A stretch of 64,000 nucleotides of DNA, taken from NCBI GenBank assembly GCA_039815145.1, contig JBCBZW010000009.1, positions 1 to 64,000 on the forward strand, given 5' to 3'. This document shows positions 50,970 to 59,814 of the stretch, piece by piece. The DNA comes from Pseudomonadota bacterium. Lineage in GTDB: Bacteria; Pseudomonadota; Gammaproteobacteria; Steroidobacterales; JBCBZW01. The position numbers and the translations under genes are program-made. The notes under the pieces were generated by a model. That model ran no database searches. It worked only from the letters and a program-made list of their open reading frames with translations, and was not told where the DNA came from. Position 1 is the stretch's first letter; every line of letters begins with the position of its first letter.

Positions 50970-50971
50970 CT
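50948..50971 (-). terminator. Hairpin at the end of dabA
   Basis: AGCCCGGC and GCCGGGCT form a perfect 8-bp stem with an 8-nt loop. The stem overlaps the dabA stop codon by two bases. There is no T-run on the transcript side. Confidence 0.45.
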
Positions 50972-53411
50972 AGCTCGCGGCAGCTGACAGGGGTGGCGAG
51001 GTGTCGAAGGCGCCGCCGGTCGCGCTGCCCTCGAGCTCCTCAGCCCACTGCAGATCCCCCGTGTAGCGCCACAGGCGATCGCCGTCGATGCTGAACAAGT
51101 GCAGCCAACCGTTATCGAAGAGGTCGCGTACGCCGTCGTGGCGGCCGAGGATCTCACTGATCGCCTCGCGCGGGGCCTCGGCGATCACGGACAGGCGCAG
51201 CGGTTCGTGCTGGTAGCCCTCGCCGTCGTGCACCGACTGCCAGGGCAGACCCGCGCGCAGCAGGCCGCCGTTGCCCTCGACCACGCCGATGCCGCCGACC
51301 ACGTTGTGCAGCAGCTTGTTACCGCCGCCGAACACCTCGGGGCTCACGCTCGAGCCGTAGTACTGCAGGCTGATCCAACTCGCCACCACCACGGGGGCGG
51401 TGAGGATGAGCTCCAGCACGCCGAAGCCCTCGTCCTGCTGCCAGTCGTAGTTGTGCAGGAAGGCGCGACCGCCAAGGTCGTGGCCGGCCGTGCGACCGCG
51501 CGGGGCGGCGATGAAGGCGCGGCAGCCGGCGAGGGCCCACTCGGGCCGGGTCTCGGCCCAGTCGCCGCTGCGCGCGGAGACCTCGTCGCCGCTCTCGGCG
51601 CGGGGCAGGCTCAGGGCACGCTCGCCGCGTGTCACCTGACCGGCGCTGCGAAGCCAGGTCCGCACCTGCGCGAGGTCCTCGGCGTGCTCCGTGGACGGCG
51701 AATCGTCGGCGTAGAGGGTGACGGCGTCGGTGGTGGTGTCGTGCAGGGCACCGACGAACCAGGTGTCTTCGGGGATCTCGAGACCGCCGTCGCGCAGGCC
51801 CTGGCGCACGTCGCCATCGTTGAGCAGGCCTGCGAGTAGCCGCGCGTTGACCTCACCCGAGTAGCCGCCACAGGCGCCGCAGTGCAGGGCGCTGGCGTGG
51901 GGGTTGTTGACCACGTTGGCGCCGTGGCCGGCGAGCACCACCACGCGAGCGAAGTTGTCCGTGAGGGACATCGCGCTGAGTACGGTACGCGCAGCGGCGA
52001 TGCGCTGCTCCAGGTGGAGGTCGGGATCGAGACGCGGGGCGGGATCCGTGGGCGCCGCATCGTGGGCGCTGCCGCCGAGGGAGTCGCGGATCAGCTTCAC
52101 GATGTACAGCGGGCCGGAGGCCTCGACGAACGCGAAGGACGACACCGCCGCCAACTTGAAACGACCCCAGGCGCGCGTGGCGCGGGCCTTGATGCGGCTA
52201 GCGAATGCCTTGGGCTCGTGATCGCAGGTGCCGGACACCGAGTGCACGCCCGCGTTCAAGAGCACCGGCAGGCGGTGCTCCGCGGTGTCCGAGGCGAAGC
52301 GCTTGTGCGAGGTGGCGATGCCGAAGAAGCCGGCGAAGCCAAGGGTCTCGATGCGTGCGTCCAGACCCTCCAGGGCGCGTCGGAAGACCTCCGAGCGCAC
52401 ATCGATGCAGAAGGCGGCCTGCAGGGCCGGGCGGGTGCGATCGCCATCGTCGGCGGCGACCGGCCCCAGGTTCAGCTTGCCGGCGATGTCGCACTGCGCG
52501 GCGCGCTCGGCTGCTTCCTGGAGAATGGCGTCCAGCCATAGCTCAGCATCCGCTTCCAACGGCGTTGAGTGCTCTGCACGCGTGACCAACCACTGTTCCG
52601 TGAGAGCCTCACGGTGTTGCTCGTAGAGTGCCAGCTCGTAGGTGAGTCGGATCGCCAACAGGTCGATCGCGGTCTCGTCGCTGGTGCCGGCCAGCTCCGC
52701 CTGCCACAGGTGATAGCGCGCCACCTGGGCCCAGCCGTTCACGGTCATCAGCAGCTGGTGGAAGTAGGTGTCGAGGGCCTCGGCGTCGAGACCCAGGCCG
52801 TCGACGGCGCGGGCGATGGCTTCGCTGGCGCTATCCGGCGCCTCGGCGACGCGCTGGGCAAAGCCCGCAAGGCCGTGGATCTCGGGCGTGAGGTCGTGGG
52901 TGGCGGTGGCCCGCCAGGCGGTCCAGGCGTTGCGCCCGCGCGGGGCGCTCCAGAGGGCTTGGCCCGCATCGAAATAGCCCGCGGCCCAGTGACCGACACG
53001 TTCGGCGATCAGGCGTGGCCAGTCGGTGCCGCTCTCCTGAGCGGCGAGTTCCGCCACCGTGGGCAACGCCTTCGGCGCCGGAGCCGGGGTGGCCGCGGCC
53101 GCTTTCAGGGCCTCCACGTCCTGCGGACGCAGGTGGTCCGGCGCTTTGGCTAAGGCATCGGCTAGGTGATCATCGGTGATGGTGCCGGCGGCGATACGCT
53201 CGAGGTACCAGCTGCGCGGCATGGTGATCGGGCACCCGGCCACGCGGGCCAGGCGGGCACCGGTCCGCGCCAGGGTGTCGCCGGTCTGCCCCAGGTAGGG
53301 GTTGACGGCGACGGAGGAGGCCAGGGGCCACACGGGGGGCACGGCGCGCACAGCCGCGTCGGCGGCGGCCAGCAGGCCGGTCTGCACAGTCGTCTCTTGT
53401 ACGTTGCTCAT
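50970..53411 (-). CDS. dabA: Inorganic carbon transporter subunit DabA
   Basis: An 813-residue DUF2309/UPF0753 protein. The beta-carbonic-anhydrase-like zinc site is intact: Cys335 and Asp337 (FCIDVRSE), His496 (AGHGANV) and Cys511 ([16 protein letters not shown]). The 15-residue His-Cys spacing matches Halothiobacillus DabA. With DabB it is thought to couple cation-driven membrane energy to one-way hydration of CO2 to bicarbonate, thereby accumulating inorganic carbon. ATG 53411 is preceded by a strong GAGGAGGAAG; an upstream frame of 70 residues is Arg/Pro-rich and antisense to nothing conserved. It lies 11 nt downstream of dabB in one operon. Confidence 0.93.
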
Positions 53412-53422
53412 GATCTTCCTCC

Positions 53423-54964
53423 TCAGGCAGCGGTGCGCGATGGGCGACGGGTGATGGACCAACCGCCGACGAGGCGATCGAACAGGGCGTTTACGTACAG
53501 GCCGTTCGAGAGGTGTACGCGCAAGCCCGCGGCGGCGGGGTGGTAGGCCCACAGGGGGAAGGTGGCTTGGCCCACCGCCACCAGAGCGAAGCTCAGCACC
53601 GACAGCACCATCAGCGCCCACTCAAGGGAGTCCGGCGTCGGCGGCGCCGGCAGCGTGCCGGCGGTGAGCCACTCGGCGGCGTTGTGCAGGGTGAAGTAGG
53701 CGACGGAGGTCACCACCGAGTAGAGCGCCGTGCGACGGGTGAGCTCGCGCGGCGCTGCATCGGCAAAGCCCTGCGCCAGCAGGTAGGCCACGCCCAGCAC
53801 GAGAATGGCGCCGAGCACGATGGCCTGGGCCGACTTGTGATCGAGGCCGAAGGCGAGGCCGATGGCGCAGTAGATCGTGAGTGCCGCGATGAATGACAGG
53901 ACCACCGCGCCCGCGCGCGGGATAGCCACCGGCCCCGGGCGCTGGATCGACGCGACCCGCTCGACCGCGCCGCCAGCGGCGAGGAACGCGTGCGCCTTGT
54001 AGAGCGAGTGGGCAACGATGTGCAGCAAGGCCAGGGCGAACAGGCCGAGACCGCACTGGAGGGTCATGAAGCCCATCTGAGCCACGGTCGACCAGGCGAG
54101 GGAAGTCTTCACGGTCGGCTGGGTCAGCATCACGCAGCTGCCGTACAGCGCGGTGAAGCCACCGATGATCACCAGCACGGCGAGCATGCCGGGCGCCAGC
54201 AGCATCACGTCGGCGAAGCGTAAGAGGAGGAAGCCCCCGGCGTTGATCAAGCCCGCGTGGAGCAGGGCCGACACCGGCGTCGGCGTCTCCATCACCTCCG
54301 TCAGCCAGCCGTGGGTGGGGAACTGGGCCGACTTGAGCAGGGCCGCGATGGCGATCAGGCCTGCCGCCAGGGTGAGCGACGCACTGCTCTCGCCGGTGCT
54401 CGCGGCACTCAGGATGGTGGCGATGTCGCCGGTGCCGAAGGCGTTGGCAAGAAGCACGACAGCGCCGAGTAGCGCACCGTCACTGAGTCGGGCGACGACG
54501 AACTTCTTGGCGGCGGCGCGCTGGGCGGGCACGCGATCGGGGTAGAACAGAAGCAGACGATGCAGCGTCAGGCTCGTGCTCACCCAGGCCACGAACAGTT
54601 GCGTTAGGTTGCCCGCCTGCACGAGGAGGAGTACGGCGGCGAGCGTGAGGCACATCCAGCCCGTGAACGCGCCCTGGCGCGACTCGCCGTCGAGGTAGTT
54701 GCGCGAGTAGCGCAGCACCACCCAGCCGACGAAGCTCACCAACAGCAGCATCAGTACGCTCACCACATCGAGGCGCGAACTCAAGCCCAGCAGGGCGGGG
54801 CTGGTGCCGGGGCCCTGGGTGATCAGCACCAGCCCGGCGCCGAGGCTGCTGGCCATGGCGAACAGAGCCAGGATCTCCGCCACCAAGGGCCCGCGGTTGG
54901 TCGGGCGGCGACCGGGGTTGGCGAAGGAGACGGCGGCGGCAAGCAGCATCAACGCTGGTGCCAC
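53423..54964 (-). CDS. dabB: Inorganic carbon transporter membrane subunit DabB (NuoL/MrpA-like)
   Basis: A 513-residue protein with about 13 hydrophobic helices related to proton-pumping NuoL/MrpA subunits. Landmarks: [64 protein letters not shown] (the channel-helix motif with conserved Lys and Pro residues), and [21 protein letters not shown] 54964 is the furthest in-frame start after a TGA; ATG five codons later is also possible. First gene of dabBA; an FNR-type box lies 82 nt upstream. Confidence 0.92.
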
Positions 54965-55269
54965 GATGGGGGATCATGTACGTCGGCACGGTGGGCTTCC
55001 TCCGAGGCGATTGGGAACGCGGAGGATTAAAGCGCATCGCATCAATTGATCCAGATCAATTTAGTGCCATCTGAATTCCAATAAATAGAATCGAAACAGA
55101 TGCCGCAAATCGGATTACTGGCTTGGCTTTCGCGATAACCGTGCGGAGCACCCGACCGACGGCGAATTCACCCGGTGACGCCTGCCGGCGTCGTCGTCGA
55201 CCAGGGACATCAGGAATTCTGACGCGCGTTGATTATGCTCAATACCGGTCTTTCATCCTGGAAACGTTC
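54965..55269. other. 305-nt divergent control region
   Basis: Apart from the FNR-type box and nearby A/T-rich -10 candidates (55015-55095), nothing else is seen. The plus-strand frame that runs from 55123 into the next gene is Arg-rich and probably not translated. Confidence 0.5.
55046..55059. promoter_or_regulatory. Perfect FNR/Anr-type box between dabB and the divergent gene
   Basis: TTGATCCAGATCAA equals the FNR consensus TTGAT-N4-ATCAA, inside an 18-bp perfect palindrome arm pair (55044-55061). On the plus strand, ATAAAT (55081-55086) has its centre 31 bp from the box centre, close to class II activator spacing. On the minus strand, TTTAAT (complement of 55026-55031) is only 24 bp away. 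Either or both divergent units may be controlled by oxygen limitation. Confidence 0.65.
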
Positions 55270-57813
55270 ATGAATCAGCTCCCATCTGCCGCCTGTATCG
55301 CGCACCTAATGCGTTGTGCAGGTGGGGTCGCGCTCGTGCTCCTTAGCTTGGGTACGGGCCTCGCGCATGCCGCACAGATCAGTGGCTCGCTGATCACCTG
55401 GCACCCCCTTACGGTCGACTTCGTCGGCCCTGAAGCCAATGAGCGGGATGACGCCCCAAACCCCTTCCTCGACTACCGACTGACCGTGGAGTGGACCGGA
55501 CCCGACGGTCAGCTGATCTCCGTGCCCGGGTTCTTCGCCGGTGACGGCAGCGGTGGTGCGACGGGAGATGTCTGGCGCGTACGTTTCGCGCCGGAGGCGC
55601 CCGGCACCTGGCAGTACACGGCGCGCTTTCGAAGCGGTGAGGAAGTGGCCATCTCCCTCGACCCCCAGGCAGGCGAGGCCACCGGGCCCGACGGTGAGAC
55701 TGGCAGCGTCGACATCGCGCCCATCGACCCCGATGCCAGTGGCTTTCTGCCCTGGGGCCGATTGGAGTACGTCGGTGAGCACTACCCGAAGTTTCGCGAC
55801 GGACCCTACTGGCTGAAGGGTGGCGTCGATAGCCCTGAGAACTTCCTCGGCTACGCCGGCTTTCACAACACGGAAGACCAGGGCGGCATCAACTCGGGCT
55901 TCCTCCACGAGTACGCACCCCACCGCCAGGACTTCTCTCCCGGCGATCCCGAGTTTTTCAACGAGCAGAGCGGCGTCGACAGCGAGGGCATCATCGGCGC
56001 CCTGAACTACCTCGCGAGTGCCAAGGTGAACTCCATCTACTTCCTGCCGATGAATCTCGGCGGGGACGGTCAGGAGACCTACCCCTTCGTGGGGCCCGCC
56101 GACGATCGCTTCGACAAGACCCACTACGACATCCGAAAGCTCTACGAATGGAACCTGGTGCTCAATCACGCCCAGGAGCAGGGCATCTCACCGCACTTCG
56201 TGCTGGCGGAGACCGAATCGCCAAACGAGCAATGGCTGGACGACGGAACCCTGGGCGTGGAGCGCAAGCTCTATTATCGCGAGCTCATCGCCCGCTTCGC
56301 CTACCTGCTGACCGGCAAGTGGAACCTCTCCGAAGAGAACGACTACAACGTCTCGGCGCTGCGCGAGTTCGCCGACTACCTGCGCGCCCTCGATTGGTCC
56401 GGCAAGCACATCGCCGTGCACACGAAACCGAACAACTTTCGTGACTACGATGAGATCGTCGGCGAAGACCGCTTCGATGCCACCTCGATCCAGTACGCCC
56501 CGGATCAGGCGGGCGATCACGTGGAGACCTGGCGCCAGAACTCCGCCGCCGTGGGCCGCCCGTGGATCCTCGACATGGACGAGAACAACCCCGCCGGCTC
56601 GGGCCTCAACGATGAGAATGCCGAGGACCTGCGCAAGCGCGTGCTCTACGACGTGTACTTCTCCGGCGGTGCCATCGAGTGGTACTTCGGCTACCACGAC
56701 CTGCCCTTGGGCGGCGACATGCGCACGGAGGACTTCCGCACCCGCGCGGAGATGTACGACTACATGTGGTACGCCCGGCGCTTCCTCGAGGAGCAGGTGC
56801 CGTTCTGGGAGATGGCCCCGAACGACGCGCTCCTGAGCGGCGAGGCCGGCGCCTTCGGCGGTGGCGAGGTGCTCGCCAAGGTGGGCGAGGCCTACGCGAT
56901 CTATTTGCCCGACGCCGATCCGGCAGGCTCTCTGGATTTAGGCGGCGTGGCGGGCAGCTTCGTGCGTCGCTGGTACGACCCCGTCACCGGCGAGTTCGCA
57001 GGTGAGCCACTCACCCTGCTCGGCGGCGCGCCGGCCGCCTTGGGCACATCGCCCTCACGCCCCTCGGAAGACTGGGTGGCCTTGATCCTGCGCGACGACG
57101 ACGCCCCGCCGCCGCCCCCGCCGGACTTCGCCGTGGTGGAGCTCGCCTTGATCGACGCGGACTTGGATCAGCCGATCCCCGACCAGGACCCCCTGGCCGA
57201 CGGCGCTACCCTCAACCTCGCGACGCTCCCCACCCGCAACCTCAACGTGGTGGCGCGCACGGACGGTGAGATCGGCAGCGTTCGCTTCCTCCTCGACGGT
57301 GCCGTGTTCTCCACGGAGAACGTCGCGCCCTACGCCCTCGCTGGCGACAGCAACGGCGACTTCAACGCCTGGACCCCGCCCCTCGGCGAGCTCACGATCA
57401 CGGCCACGGCCTACGCTGGGGAAGGCGCTGGCGGCGAGGTGGGCGGCAGCGTGATGATCACCCTCGACGTGGTGGACGAGGCACCGCCCCCACCCGTGTT
57501 CACCTTGTCGCCCACGGCCCCCGGTGAGGCCGGCGTGGTGAACGAGTGGGAGACCCTCAATGGCTCGCCCGGCGGCGTCAGCCTGATCTTCGCCGCGGGC
57601 AACGAAGGCGACACGCCGATCACCGTGGGCAACTGTGAGGTCACCCTCGCCCTGGCGTCCGAGCGGCGTCTCGCGGGCGCTCAGGCCGACCCCGAGGGTC
57701 GCGCCCTGGCTTCGCGTCCACTGCCGATTAGCCTGGCCGGACGCACGCTCTACTTCCAGGCCCTCGATCTGCAGAGCTGCACCCTCAGCAACGTCACCCA
57801 AAGCACCCTGTGA
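55270..57813 (+). CDS. Secreted DUF5060-type glycoside-hydrolase-like protein
   Basis: An 847-residue exported protein. Signal peptide (VALVLLSLGTGLAHA); DUF5060-like beta domain (about 35-140: WHPLTVDFVGP, VWRVRFAPEAPGTWQYTARF); TIM-barrel catalytic-type domain (about 175-560: GRLEYVGEHYPKFRDGPYWLKG, NSIYFLPMNLGGDGQE, ISPHFVLAETE, PWILDMDENN); a small C-terminal barrel-cap domain; a Pro linker and Ig-like domain (about 620-735: VVARTDGEIGSVRFLLDGAVFS); and a final module (about 745-847) shared with the next protein. It probably degrades an extracellular polysaccharide. The ATG has only a weak ribosome site (CTGGAAA). Confidence 0.8.
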   Translation: MNQLPSAACIAHLMRCAGGVALVLLSLGTGLAHAAQISGSLITWHPLTVDFVGPEANERDDAPNPFLDYRLTVEWTGPDGQLISVPGFFAGDGSGGATGDVWRVRFAPEAPGTWQYTARFRSGEEVAISLDPQAGEATGPDGETGSVDIAPIDPDASGFLPWGRLEYVGEHYPKFRDGPYWLKGGVDSPENFLGYAGFHNTEDQGGINSGFLHEYAPHRQDFSPGDPEFFNEQSGVDSEGIIGALNYLASAKVNSIYFLPMNLGGDGQETYPFVGPADDRFDKTHYDIRKLYEWNLVLNHAQEQGISPHFVLAETESPNEQWLDDGTLGVERKLYYRELIARFAYLLTGKWNLSEENDYNVSALREFADYLRALDWSGKHIAVHTKPNNFRDYDEIVGEDRFDATSIQYAPDQAGDHVETWRQNSAAVGRPWILDMDENNPAGSGLNDENAEDLRKRVLYDVYFSGGAIEWYFGYHDLPLGGDMRTEDFRTRAEMYDYMWYARRFLEEQVPFWEMAPNDALLSGEAGAFGGGEVLAKVGEAYAIYLPDADPAGSLDLGGVAGSFVRRWYDPVTGEFAGEPLTLLGGAPAALGTSPSRPSEDWVALILRDDDAPPPPPPDFAVVELALIDADLDQPIPDQDPLADGATLNLATLPTRNLNVVARTDGEIGSVRFLLDGAVFSTENVAPYALAGDSNGDFNAWTPPLGELTITATAYAGEGAGGEVGGSVMITLDVVDEAPPPPVFTLSPTAPGEAGVVNEWETLNGSPGGVSLIFAAGNEGDTPITVGNCEVTLALASERRLAGAQADPEGRALASRPLPISLAGRTLYFQALDLQSCTLSNVTQSTL

Positions 57814-57898
57814 CACGCGGCAAGCACCGATAGGTCGCCCGCTATCGAATGGTGCTCTGTGCATGGTGGCAACGGCGAGATTGCTGCACACTGCCCCG

Positions 57899-57940
57899 GC
57901 TGCATGCCCACGGCCGCTTCGTGCGCTGTGGGCATGCAGC
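57899..57940. terminator. Long perfect hairpin between the two secreted-protein genes
   Basis: GCTGCATGCCCAC (57899-57911) pairs perfectly with GTGGGCATGCAGC (57928-57940) around a 16-nt loop. It lies 86 nt after one stop and 42 nt before the next start, so it may terminate the first transcript or stabilise/process a shared one. There is no T-run. Confidence 0.5.
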
Positions 57941-57981
57941 GTTATGGATAACGCCTATCACCAAAAGAGGCAGGATTCCTC

Positions 57982-59814
57982 ATGACGACACCCAAGACAG
58001 CGTGCAAAACGCTGCTACTGCTGCCCTTGAGCATCGCACTCGCGCTCAACACCAACGCCCACGCCCAGGAGCTGCAATCTCTCTATCGTGAAGCCCCCAA
58101 CGATCCCCCGGCCAAGGTTCGCGCGCAGGATGACCCTGCGGCGCGCTCCGCTGCTCGGCGCATCGTGGGCGGTCCCTACGTCAGCGTTCAAGTTAATGTG
58201 GATGCTAACGGTATGAACATCGTGGGCGATGCGGCGAACGAGCCGTCCCTCACGGTGAGCGCCACCGACCCCGACAACATCGCTGTCGGCTGGCGCCAGT
58301 TCGACAGCATCAACTCCGACTTCCGCCAGGCCGGCAACGCCTTCAGCTTCGACGGTGGCCAGAACTGGACAGCCCCCGCCGTCCTCACGCCGGGCGTGTT
58401 CCGCTCAGACCCTGTGCTCGCGAGCTTGAGCGACGGTCGCCTGCTCTACCAGAGCCTGCAGGAGACCTTCGCCGTGGAGACCTTCACCTCCACCAACGGC
58501 GGCGTCTCCTACGGCCCGCCCATCCCGAGCTTCGGCGGGGATAAGAACTGGCTGGCCGTGGACGCCACCGGCGGCCTCGGTGATGGCCATGCCTACGGCA
58601 TCTGGCAGCGCTTCTTCGGCTGCTGCGGCAGCAATGTGCTGACCCGCTCCATCGACGCCAACGACAGCTGGCAGTTCCCCGTCGCCGTGGATTTGAGCCC
58701 GACCTTCGGCACCCTCGCGGTGGGGCCCGACGGCACCCTGTACTCCGCCGGCGTCGACGGCACGTTCACCCAGGATCTCAACCAGTTCGTGGTCTCCCGC
58801 TCGACGGACGCCCAGAACCCGGCGGTCACCCCCAGCTTCAGCGGTGAGCGGGTGGAGATGGGGGGCTCGATGGTGCTCGGCGCTGGTCCCAACCCAGGCG
58901 GTTTGTTAGGTCAGGCCAACGTCATGGTCGACCGCTCGGACGGCGACACGCGCGGCCACGTGTACCTGCTGGCCTCGGTCAACCCGCCGGGGGCCGACCC
59001 CCTCGACGTCAACATCATCCGCAGCACCGATGGTGGTGACACCTGGTCTGCGCCGGTGCGGGTGAATAACGACGCCGGCACCGGATGGCAGTGGCTGGCG
59101 GCGGGCGATGTGGCTCTCGACGGGCGCATCGATGCGATCTGGGCGGATACGCGCAACAGCGGCCAGGAGAACATCTCGGAGATCTTCTACGCCTGGTCTT
59201 ACGACGGCGGCCAGACCTGGCAGGGCAATGAGCCCATCACCCCCGCCTGGGACTCCTTCGTCGGCTTCCCCCGCCAGAGCAAGATCGGTGACTACTACCA
59301 AGTCGTCTCGGGCCGCGAGGATGCGAGCGCCGTGTACTCGGCCACCCTCAACGGTGAGCAGGACGTCTACTACGTGCGCCTGTTCCCGGACTGCAACGAC
59401 AACGGTCGCTCGGACGTCACGGACATCGATACGGGCGACAGCCTCGACACCGATGGCTCCGGCGTGCCGGATGAGTGCGAGGGCATCAGCGGCGGTTTCG
59501 TGCTGAGTGAACCGTCGCCGGGCATCGCCGGGCAGGTGAACGACTTCGCCGTGAGCGGGGCGGGCGCCGATCAGGCCGTGCTGTACTACCTGGGGGCACC
59601 CGCCGGTACGACGCCAGGCCTTGGCCCCTGTGCAGGCGAGGTGATCGAGCTTGGCAACGCCCGCTTGGTCGGCTTCGCGCGAGCGGATGCGGCCGGTGAC
59701 GCCGTGCTCACCCGCGATGTGCCGGCAGGGCTCAGCGGTCGCACGCTGGGCTTGCAGGCGATCGATCTCGGTAGCTGCGCGCTCTCGAACGAGTTGCTGT
59801 TCACCTTCGACTAG
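57982..59814 (+). CDS. Secreted BNR-repeat (sialidase-like propeller) protein
   Basis: A 610-residue exported protein with a signal peptide (LLLPLSIALALNTNAHAQ). A six-bladed sialidase-type propeller is indicated by Asp-boxes: SFDGGQNW, STDGGDTW and SYDGGQTW, plus a degenerate STNGGVSY. The catalytic arginine triad and Tyr/Glu pair of true sialidases are not evident, so it is more likely a binding or structural propeller. Residues about 468-500 form a Ca-binding spacer (DCNDNGRSDVTDIDTGD, then DTDGSGVPDEC). The last 105 residues are the module shared with the upstream protein. Confidence 0.82.
   Translation: MTTPKTACKTLLLLPLSIALALNTNAHAQELQSLYREAPNDPPAKVRAQDDPAARSAARRIVGGPYVSVQVNVDANGMNIVGDAANEPSLTVSATDPDNIAVGWRQFDSINSDFRQAGNAFSFDGGQNWTAPAVLTPGVFRSDPVLASLSDGRLLYQSLQETFAVETFTSTNGGVSYGPPIPSFGGDKNWLAVDATGGLGDGHAYGIWQRFFGCCGSNVLTRSIDANDSWQFPVAVDLSPTFGTLAVGPDGTLYSAGVDGTFTQDLNQFVVSRSTDAQNPAVTPSFSGERVEMGGSMVLGAGPNPGGLLGQANVMVDRSDGDTRGHVYLLASVNPPGADPLDVNIIRSTDGGDTWSAPVRVNNDAGTGWQWLAAGDVALDGRIDAIWADTRNSGQENISEIFYAWSYDGGQTWQGNEPITPAWDSFVGFPRQSKIGDYYQVVSGREDASAVYSATLNGEQDVYYVRLFPDCNDNGRSDVTDIDTGDSLDTDGSGVPDECEGISGGFVLSEPSPGIAGQVNDFAVSGAGADQAVLYYLGAPAGTTPGLGPCAGEVIELGNARLVGFARADAAGDAVLTRDVPAGLSGRTLGLQAIDLGSCALSNELLFTFD

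Follow-up and report, generated by a model that had tools for sequence, protein, structure and literature searches.

The window, that is, the whole stretch of 64,000 nucleotides that was analysed, contains two neighbouring genes on the forward strand, 168 bases apart, whose products each begin with a putative signal peptide and end in a similar module (Table 1). The sequence-only reading had described a shared motif pattern at the ends of both proteins, and every motif that it named is found in its described place: PGEAGVVN, a Cys, ADPEGRA and GRTLYFQALDLQSCTLSN in module 1, and PGIAGQVN, a Cys, ADAAGDA and GRTLGLQAIDLGSCALSN in module 2. Also in the window, on the reverse strand (50970-54964), a DabA protein (PF10070, E = 5.8e-256) adjoins a Proton_antipo_M protein; judged from these matches, this neighbour of the module genes is a DabAB-type inorganic carbon uptake pair.

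Table 1. The two module-bearing genes of the window and the features of their products.
Feature	Position	Strand	Description
Protein 1	55270..57813	+	847 aa from the ATG at 55270, a start codon picked by eye (hydrophobic N-terminus); the open frame starts at 55123
Layout of protein 1			Putative signal peptide, DUF5060, barrel-like middle, Big_7-like stretch, Pro-rich linkers, C-terminal module
Pro-rich linker EAPPPP	57478..57495	+	Abuts module 1; from the translation
Module 1	57496..57810	+	105 aa; its final residue is the last residue of protein 1
Module 1 middle Cys	57634..57636	+	Module residue 47, counted on the translation; column pairs with the end Cys
Module 1 end Cys	57778..57780	+	Module residue 95, counted on the translation; column pairs with the middle Cys
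Protein 2	57982..59814	+	610 aa: putative signal peptide, BNR/Asp-box propeller, C-terminal module
Module 2	59494..59811	+	106 aa; its final residue is the last residue of protein 2; Ig-like beta-sandwich predicted by AlphaFold2
Module 2 middle Cys	59629..59631	+	Module residue 46; invariant alignment column; co-occurs with the end Cys
Module 2 end Cys	59776..59778	+	Module residue 95; invariant alignment column; co-occurs with the middle Cys

The two modules are identical at 39 of 99 aligned positions (39%; BLASTP, E = 9e-17), and their local alignment score of 151 lies far above that of 2000 shuffles (mean 29.6, sd 5.6, maximum 58). By these sequence comparisons, modules 1 and 2 are homologous beyond chance. 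The upstream parts had been called unrelated, which agrees with our results: the two bodies score 51 against each other, at the level of shuffled sequences (mean 46, sd 6), without detectable kinship, and they match different Pfam families (DUF5060 in protein 1, E = 1.1e-18; BNR_2 in protein 2, E = 5.9e-8). The gene pair also lies side by side in a sister species (G001), with identities to the window of 87% and 93% for the bodies and 83% and 86% for the modules.

A profile built from the two modules found eight copies at E ≤ 1.7e-13 in the own genome (6.0 Mb, 295 contigs), and an eight-row profile recovered the same eight. The objection raised beforehand, that the genome might hold no other copies, therefore fails, and a coincidence between two proteins is ruled out by the many copies. 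With a 24-row profile we also detected a ninth copy, on contig C142 (E = 2.2e-22, this copy being itself among the rows), in a protein with FG-GAP repeats. The eight carriers comprise the two window proteins, two tandem BNR proteins (contig C170), a frame of 653 residues without a Pfam match (C32), a Peptidase_M14 protein (C102), a Peptidase_M36 protein with a PA domain (C13) and a short, nearly module-only protein (C27). In each of the eight, 0 or 1 residue lies between the module and the stop codon. When the bodies of seven carriers were compared, leaving out the second C170 copy, only the two BNR bodies were related (24%). The proposal of a common terminal module with two conserved cysteines on unrelated exported proteins is thus well supported. 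The sister species has seven complete copies, likewise C-terminal, together with two identical fragments of 31 residues at contig starts (L034 and L035, bases 1-93 of its contigs C34 and C73). As the same 31-residue module end opens both contigs, the gene concerned is probably present in several copies that broke the assembly.

In an alignment of 24 modules taken across the groups, one Gln and the end Cys are invariant. We then considered 131 modules, made up of 33 profile rows, 65 modules from the planctomycete genome G403 and 33 from the class of a second planctomycete genome, G404, with some proteins occurring in more than one of these sets; one Gln was present in 131/131 and one Gly in 99%. 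Of the 131, 100 have both the middle and the end Cys and 31 have neither, with no mixed case; a shift of 3 was allowed for the Cys columns, and the relatedness of the modules makes a co-occurrence p-value meaningless as a probability. The natural reading of this co-occurrence would be a disulfide that links the two cysteines in most members. Conservation does not peak in the last strand, as the mean information in the last tenth of the module is 1.75 bits versus 2.24 in the preceding tenth. As a separate observation, two modules of the sister species (L030 on C43 and L032 on C9) have DGDNDASVTI and DANLDGVVTI in place of the mid-module ADxxGxA; these replacements look like calcium loops and by eye recall an EF-hand or dockerin loop.

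AlphaFold2 models of module 2 and of a planctomycete module (L045) had mean pLDDT values of 94.2 and 94.4 (four rows each), with the last beta-strand at the chain end, and they confidently predict an Ig-like sandwich. The best structural neighbours by VIA-align were the Nir2 C-terminal region (Z 10.2, 88 residues, 2.2 Å) and a neocarzinostatin mutant (Z 8.4, 91 residues, 3.0 Å), followed by many antibody-like domains. Likeness to Nir2 and to the neocarzinostatin-type apoproteins is restricted to structure (12-18% identity, no common context) and, on the models, would reflect a common sandwich arrangement, kinship being not shown. Foldseek against the PDB gave 1827 matches at E ≤ 10 and none at E ≤ 0.001; the best 50 of the 1827 include no structure of a type IX secretion system (T9SS) C-terminal domain (CTD), which excludes nothing. 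A sequence search of the PDB returned nothing significant (flagellar protein 3c12, E = 0.13; an antibody light chain, E = 0.75).

In scans of Pfam-A and NCBIfam with 24 members at E ≤ 0.1, no family covered the module. The weak Pfam matches, each below the cut-off and in one member of the 24, were Ig_7 (E = 0.002) and Big_3_5 (E = 0.047), and neither window protein has an Ig-like Pfam match inside its module. Ig_7 (PF19081, the CHU_C-associated Ig-like domain) is the best of the Pfam matches, and by its name shares the beta-sandwich. NCBIfam gave only single matches at chance level (lipase chaperone, RnfB, FlhE). As far as these scans reach, the family has no Pfam-A or NCBIfam entry. Full-text searches of an open-access library, judged by titles and the openings of abstracts, yielded no description of the module, and neither did a search there for T9SS in Planctomycetota; PMC11131199 mentions T9SS in the title of a reference only.

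The module is rare among the relatives of the own genus and frequent in parts of another phylum. It was present in 2 of 39 genomes in a sample of relatives, both from the own genus (two-row profile), and in the own genome only among 369 genomes of its class (eight-row profile) and 398 of its phylum (24-row profile); in the large genome samples scoring covered only the 12 to 32 best candidates of each genome, so weak, scattered members may have escaped detection. Scanning GTDB contigs produced 34 pattern matches, two of which are relatives. Both come from planctomycetes and, named by eye from their sequences, are an M28-like peptidase of Phycisphaerales and a protein resembling C-type lectins. 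Their genomes, G403 and G404 respectively, contain 143 and 21 matches at E ≤ 0.01. In the class of G403, 2 of 198 genomes matched at E ≤ 1e-5 (eight-row profile), and in that of G404, 78 of 151 matched at E ≤ 1e-6, the other 73 having none at this threshold. Copy numbers in the latter class fall into two groups, with at least 12 copies in 26 genomes, at most 8 in 52 and no genome between; 32 of the 78 positive genomes have a single copy. None of 64 pattern matches on viral contigs was a relative. By sequence, then, the module is a large domain family, found especially in Planctomycetota. Among the sampled genomes of its phylum the own genus stands alone, which would most simply be explained by horizontal transfer. 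The contrast between 1 of 398 genomes in the own phylum and 78 of 151 in the class of G404 suggests that the own phylum is not Planctomycetota. In G403 we also noticed tandem arrays with several module genes in a row (L092, C33:57500-77400; L094, C70:59000-70000).

The position of the module within its carriers is nearly uniform. With a 33-row profile, 20 stretches of G403, chosen for many matches of all strengths and not for where the module lies in the protein, contained 65 modules, spread over 64 frames. A stop codon was visible for 63 of the frames, and each of these ends at most 20 residues after a module; 63 of the 64 modules in these frames are terminal, the sole internal one being the first of a tandem pair; one further frame reaches the contig end directly after its module. 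The module was also C-terminal in 30/30 of the loci from G403 and G404 and in 33/33 frames taken from 30 loci in the class to which G404 belongs, a few proteins being present in more than one of these sets. As a control, none of 13 PKD_4 matches, some of them in the same protein, lay within 20 residues of the frame end (6 of 7 searched genomes); 100 to 500 residues follow them, frames still open at the locus edge being counted as at least 500. The F5/F8 matches of the own genome (n = 3) are followed by 320 or more residues. Module frames also pass a crude signal-peptide rule, which is not a trained predictor, more often than other long frames of the same stretches (46/59 versus 36/95, p = 1.2e-6, only frames with stops on both sides). 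A counterexample to the terminal position is a distant relative in the own genome (E = 0.0011, eight-row profile; L037, G000:C24:57123-57401, and L044, G000:C251:3368-3460), which is N-terminal, adjoining a signal peptide and followed by a propeller with CxxCH motifs. Hence, the wider superfamily is not always C-terminal. The ends of contigs C24 and C251 seem to share the gene of this distant relative. For the module itself, the terminal position calls for an explanation in terms of function.

In a tree of 79 cysteine-type modules, which is rough given the few columns, 12 of the 15 modules of the own genus fall in one clade (95/92) that covers the DUF5060 carrier, two BNR types, the C32 type and the short proteins. 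The M36 module was placed outside this clade, as was the M14 pair. A single origin of all 15 was not rejected (AU p = 0.41), and the tree as it stands needs two changes. The simplest reading is that the module, rather than whole genes, was copied onto new bodies within the genus, and copying between bodies is what the importance of a shared receptor would predict.

From the observed family, position and predicted fold we infer a function and a machinery: by analogy with the C-terminal domain of T9SS, we consider it somewhat probable that the module acts as a C-terminal tag by which proteins are exported to the cell surface or kept there. Carriers would leave the cytoplasm via Sec through their N-terminal signal peptides. 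In the oxidising periplasm the module would fold as the predicted Ig-like beta-sandwich, probably closed by a disulfide in most members, and a candidate receptor at the outer membrane or cell surface would recognise it irrespective of the body. Recognition would then lead to the protein being passed across the outer membrane or kept at the surface. The bodies would be interchangeable, with related modules joined to different enzymes and propellers within the genus, and in Planctomycetota the same tag would sit on up to dozens, or more than 100, proteins per genome. More specifically, and tentatively, the module might mark the cargo of an undescribed system for outer-membrane export or surface anchoring that has its centre in Planctomycetota and would possess a receptor, and perhaps a translocon, of its own. 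One genus of another phylum could have taken up the module as a working tag and then copied it onto new proteins.

Several results count against a sorting role. Conservation is not focused on the last strand, and the distant relative is N-terminal. The 32 of 78 positive genomes with a single copy are not what a dedicated sorting system would lead one to expect. A search for partner machinery, made with one T9SS component (SprA_N), detected none in 5 genomes, with no positive control. The Ig-like fold would also serve ligand binding or stabilisation, although it is no argument against sorting, since the T9SS CTD, a proven sorting signal, is also described as Ig-like (PMC4804311). An anchoring, sorting or assembly signal had been proposed from the two window proteins; of this proposal the module, its terminal position and the Cys pair stand as observations, and a sorting role is what we infer from them.

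A first alternative, which we judge rather unlikely, is that the module works as an Ig-like domain for ligand binding or adhesion, for instance a carbohydrate-binding module, that holds enzymes and propellers on a substrate or matrix and has no role in secretion. Its sandwich fold would be appropriate, and peptidases, the DUF5060 protein and C-type-lectin-like proteins among the carriers are in line with such a role. However, the bodies have no common substrate class, no Pfam family covers the module, and binding modules need not be last, yet those in all 63 closed frames of G403 and in 33/33 of the class of G404 are. Improbable in our view is a C-terminal domain for folding, capping or protease resistance that stabilises exported proteins without any receptor. 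The strict C-terminal position, the probable disulfide and the short linkers ahead of the module would fit, but the module is attached to very different folds, often via a Pro- or Gly-rich linker, and a general stabiliser is hard to reconcile with 26 of 151 genomes having at least 12 copies and 73 none at the threshold.

We regard as very unlikely that the module is a divergent T9SS CTD and that its hosts possess a T9SS. The likeness to this signal is considerable: the T9SS CTD is described as combining an Ig-like C-terminal fold with a signal function (PMC4804311, PMC10202324), and both domains have about 100 residues, lie at the extreme C-terminus of many unrelated, diverse exported proteins, form large paralogous sets per genome and, as far as the models of the module show, adopt an Ig-like beta-sandwich of about seven strands. 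In contrast, none of 24 members matches a Pfam or NCBIfam model of the T9SS CTD, whose types A and B have the accessions PF18962/TIGR04183 and PF13585/TIGR04131 (PMC10202324), and the module has paired cysteines and a PGxAGxxN start. CTD proteins are reported as restricted to Bacteroidota (PMC10202324), whereas the module occurs in Planctomycetota and in a single genus of a different phylum. SprA_N (PF14349) was found in 0 of 5 genomes in a search that had no positive control. The module thus resembles the T9SS CTD by analogy at most, as membership fails on the sequence models. Least credible is a generic bacterial Ig-like domain of no special position, noticed through chance adjacency, the generic Ig-like domain being an objection already foreseen in the sequence-only reading: the Ig-like fold and the weak single-member matches to Ig_7 and Big_3_5 speak for it, but no known Ig-like family passes the cut-off, the module has a signature of its own in its Gln (131/131) and Gly (99%), and the control Ig-like domain, PKD, was terminal in 0/13 matches.

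Other known sorting signals were compared as well. PEP-CTERM signals have a membrane segment and a basic tail. The tails that follow C-terminal modules are 0-20 residues long and, by eye, lack a hydrophobic segment in those shown; a sortase (LPXTG) or PEP-CTERM/exosortase signal was rejected for want of a terminal membrane segment with a basic tail. The translocator of an autotransporter (type V) was rejected as the wrong fold, the module being a compact sandwich of about 105 residues without a Pfam barrel model. PEP-CTERM is described as a short C-terminal homology domain with the PEP motif and further features of a sorting signal, and the module resembles it in being a C-terminal homology domain of many unrelated exported proteins that is sporadic across genomes (PMC1569441). 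Unlike PEP-CTERM, the module is an entire folded domain with a beta-strand at its end, and the tails seen are without a terminal membrane segment.

To our knowledge, it is still largely an open question how planctomycetes transport and retain the very large number of proteins at their surface and outside the cell. A domain that is strictly terminal and easy to recognise provides a candidate cargo list for each genome, and the profile of many, few or no copies across genomes could be used to search for the missing receptor, in the way that phylogenetic profiling linked PEP-CTERM to EpsH (PMC1569441). The family would also annotate many protein ends that the searched curated libraries leave blank.

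Finally, on contig C27 of the own genome (L016:11441-12829, reverse strand), we noticed a propeller-like protein with a different conserved-looking C-terminal block, composed of an FG-GAP-like DLNNDGREDL and a CVSG...GCD cysteine pair, which may be another terminal domain.
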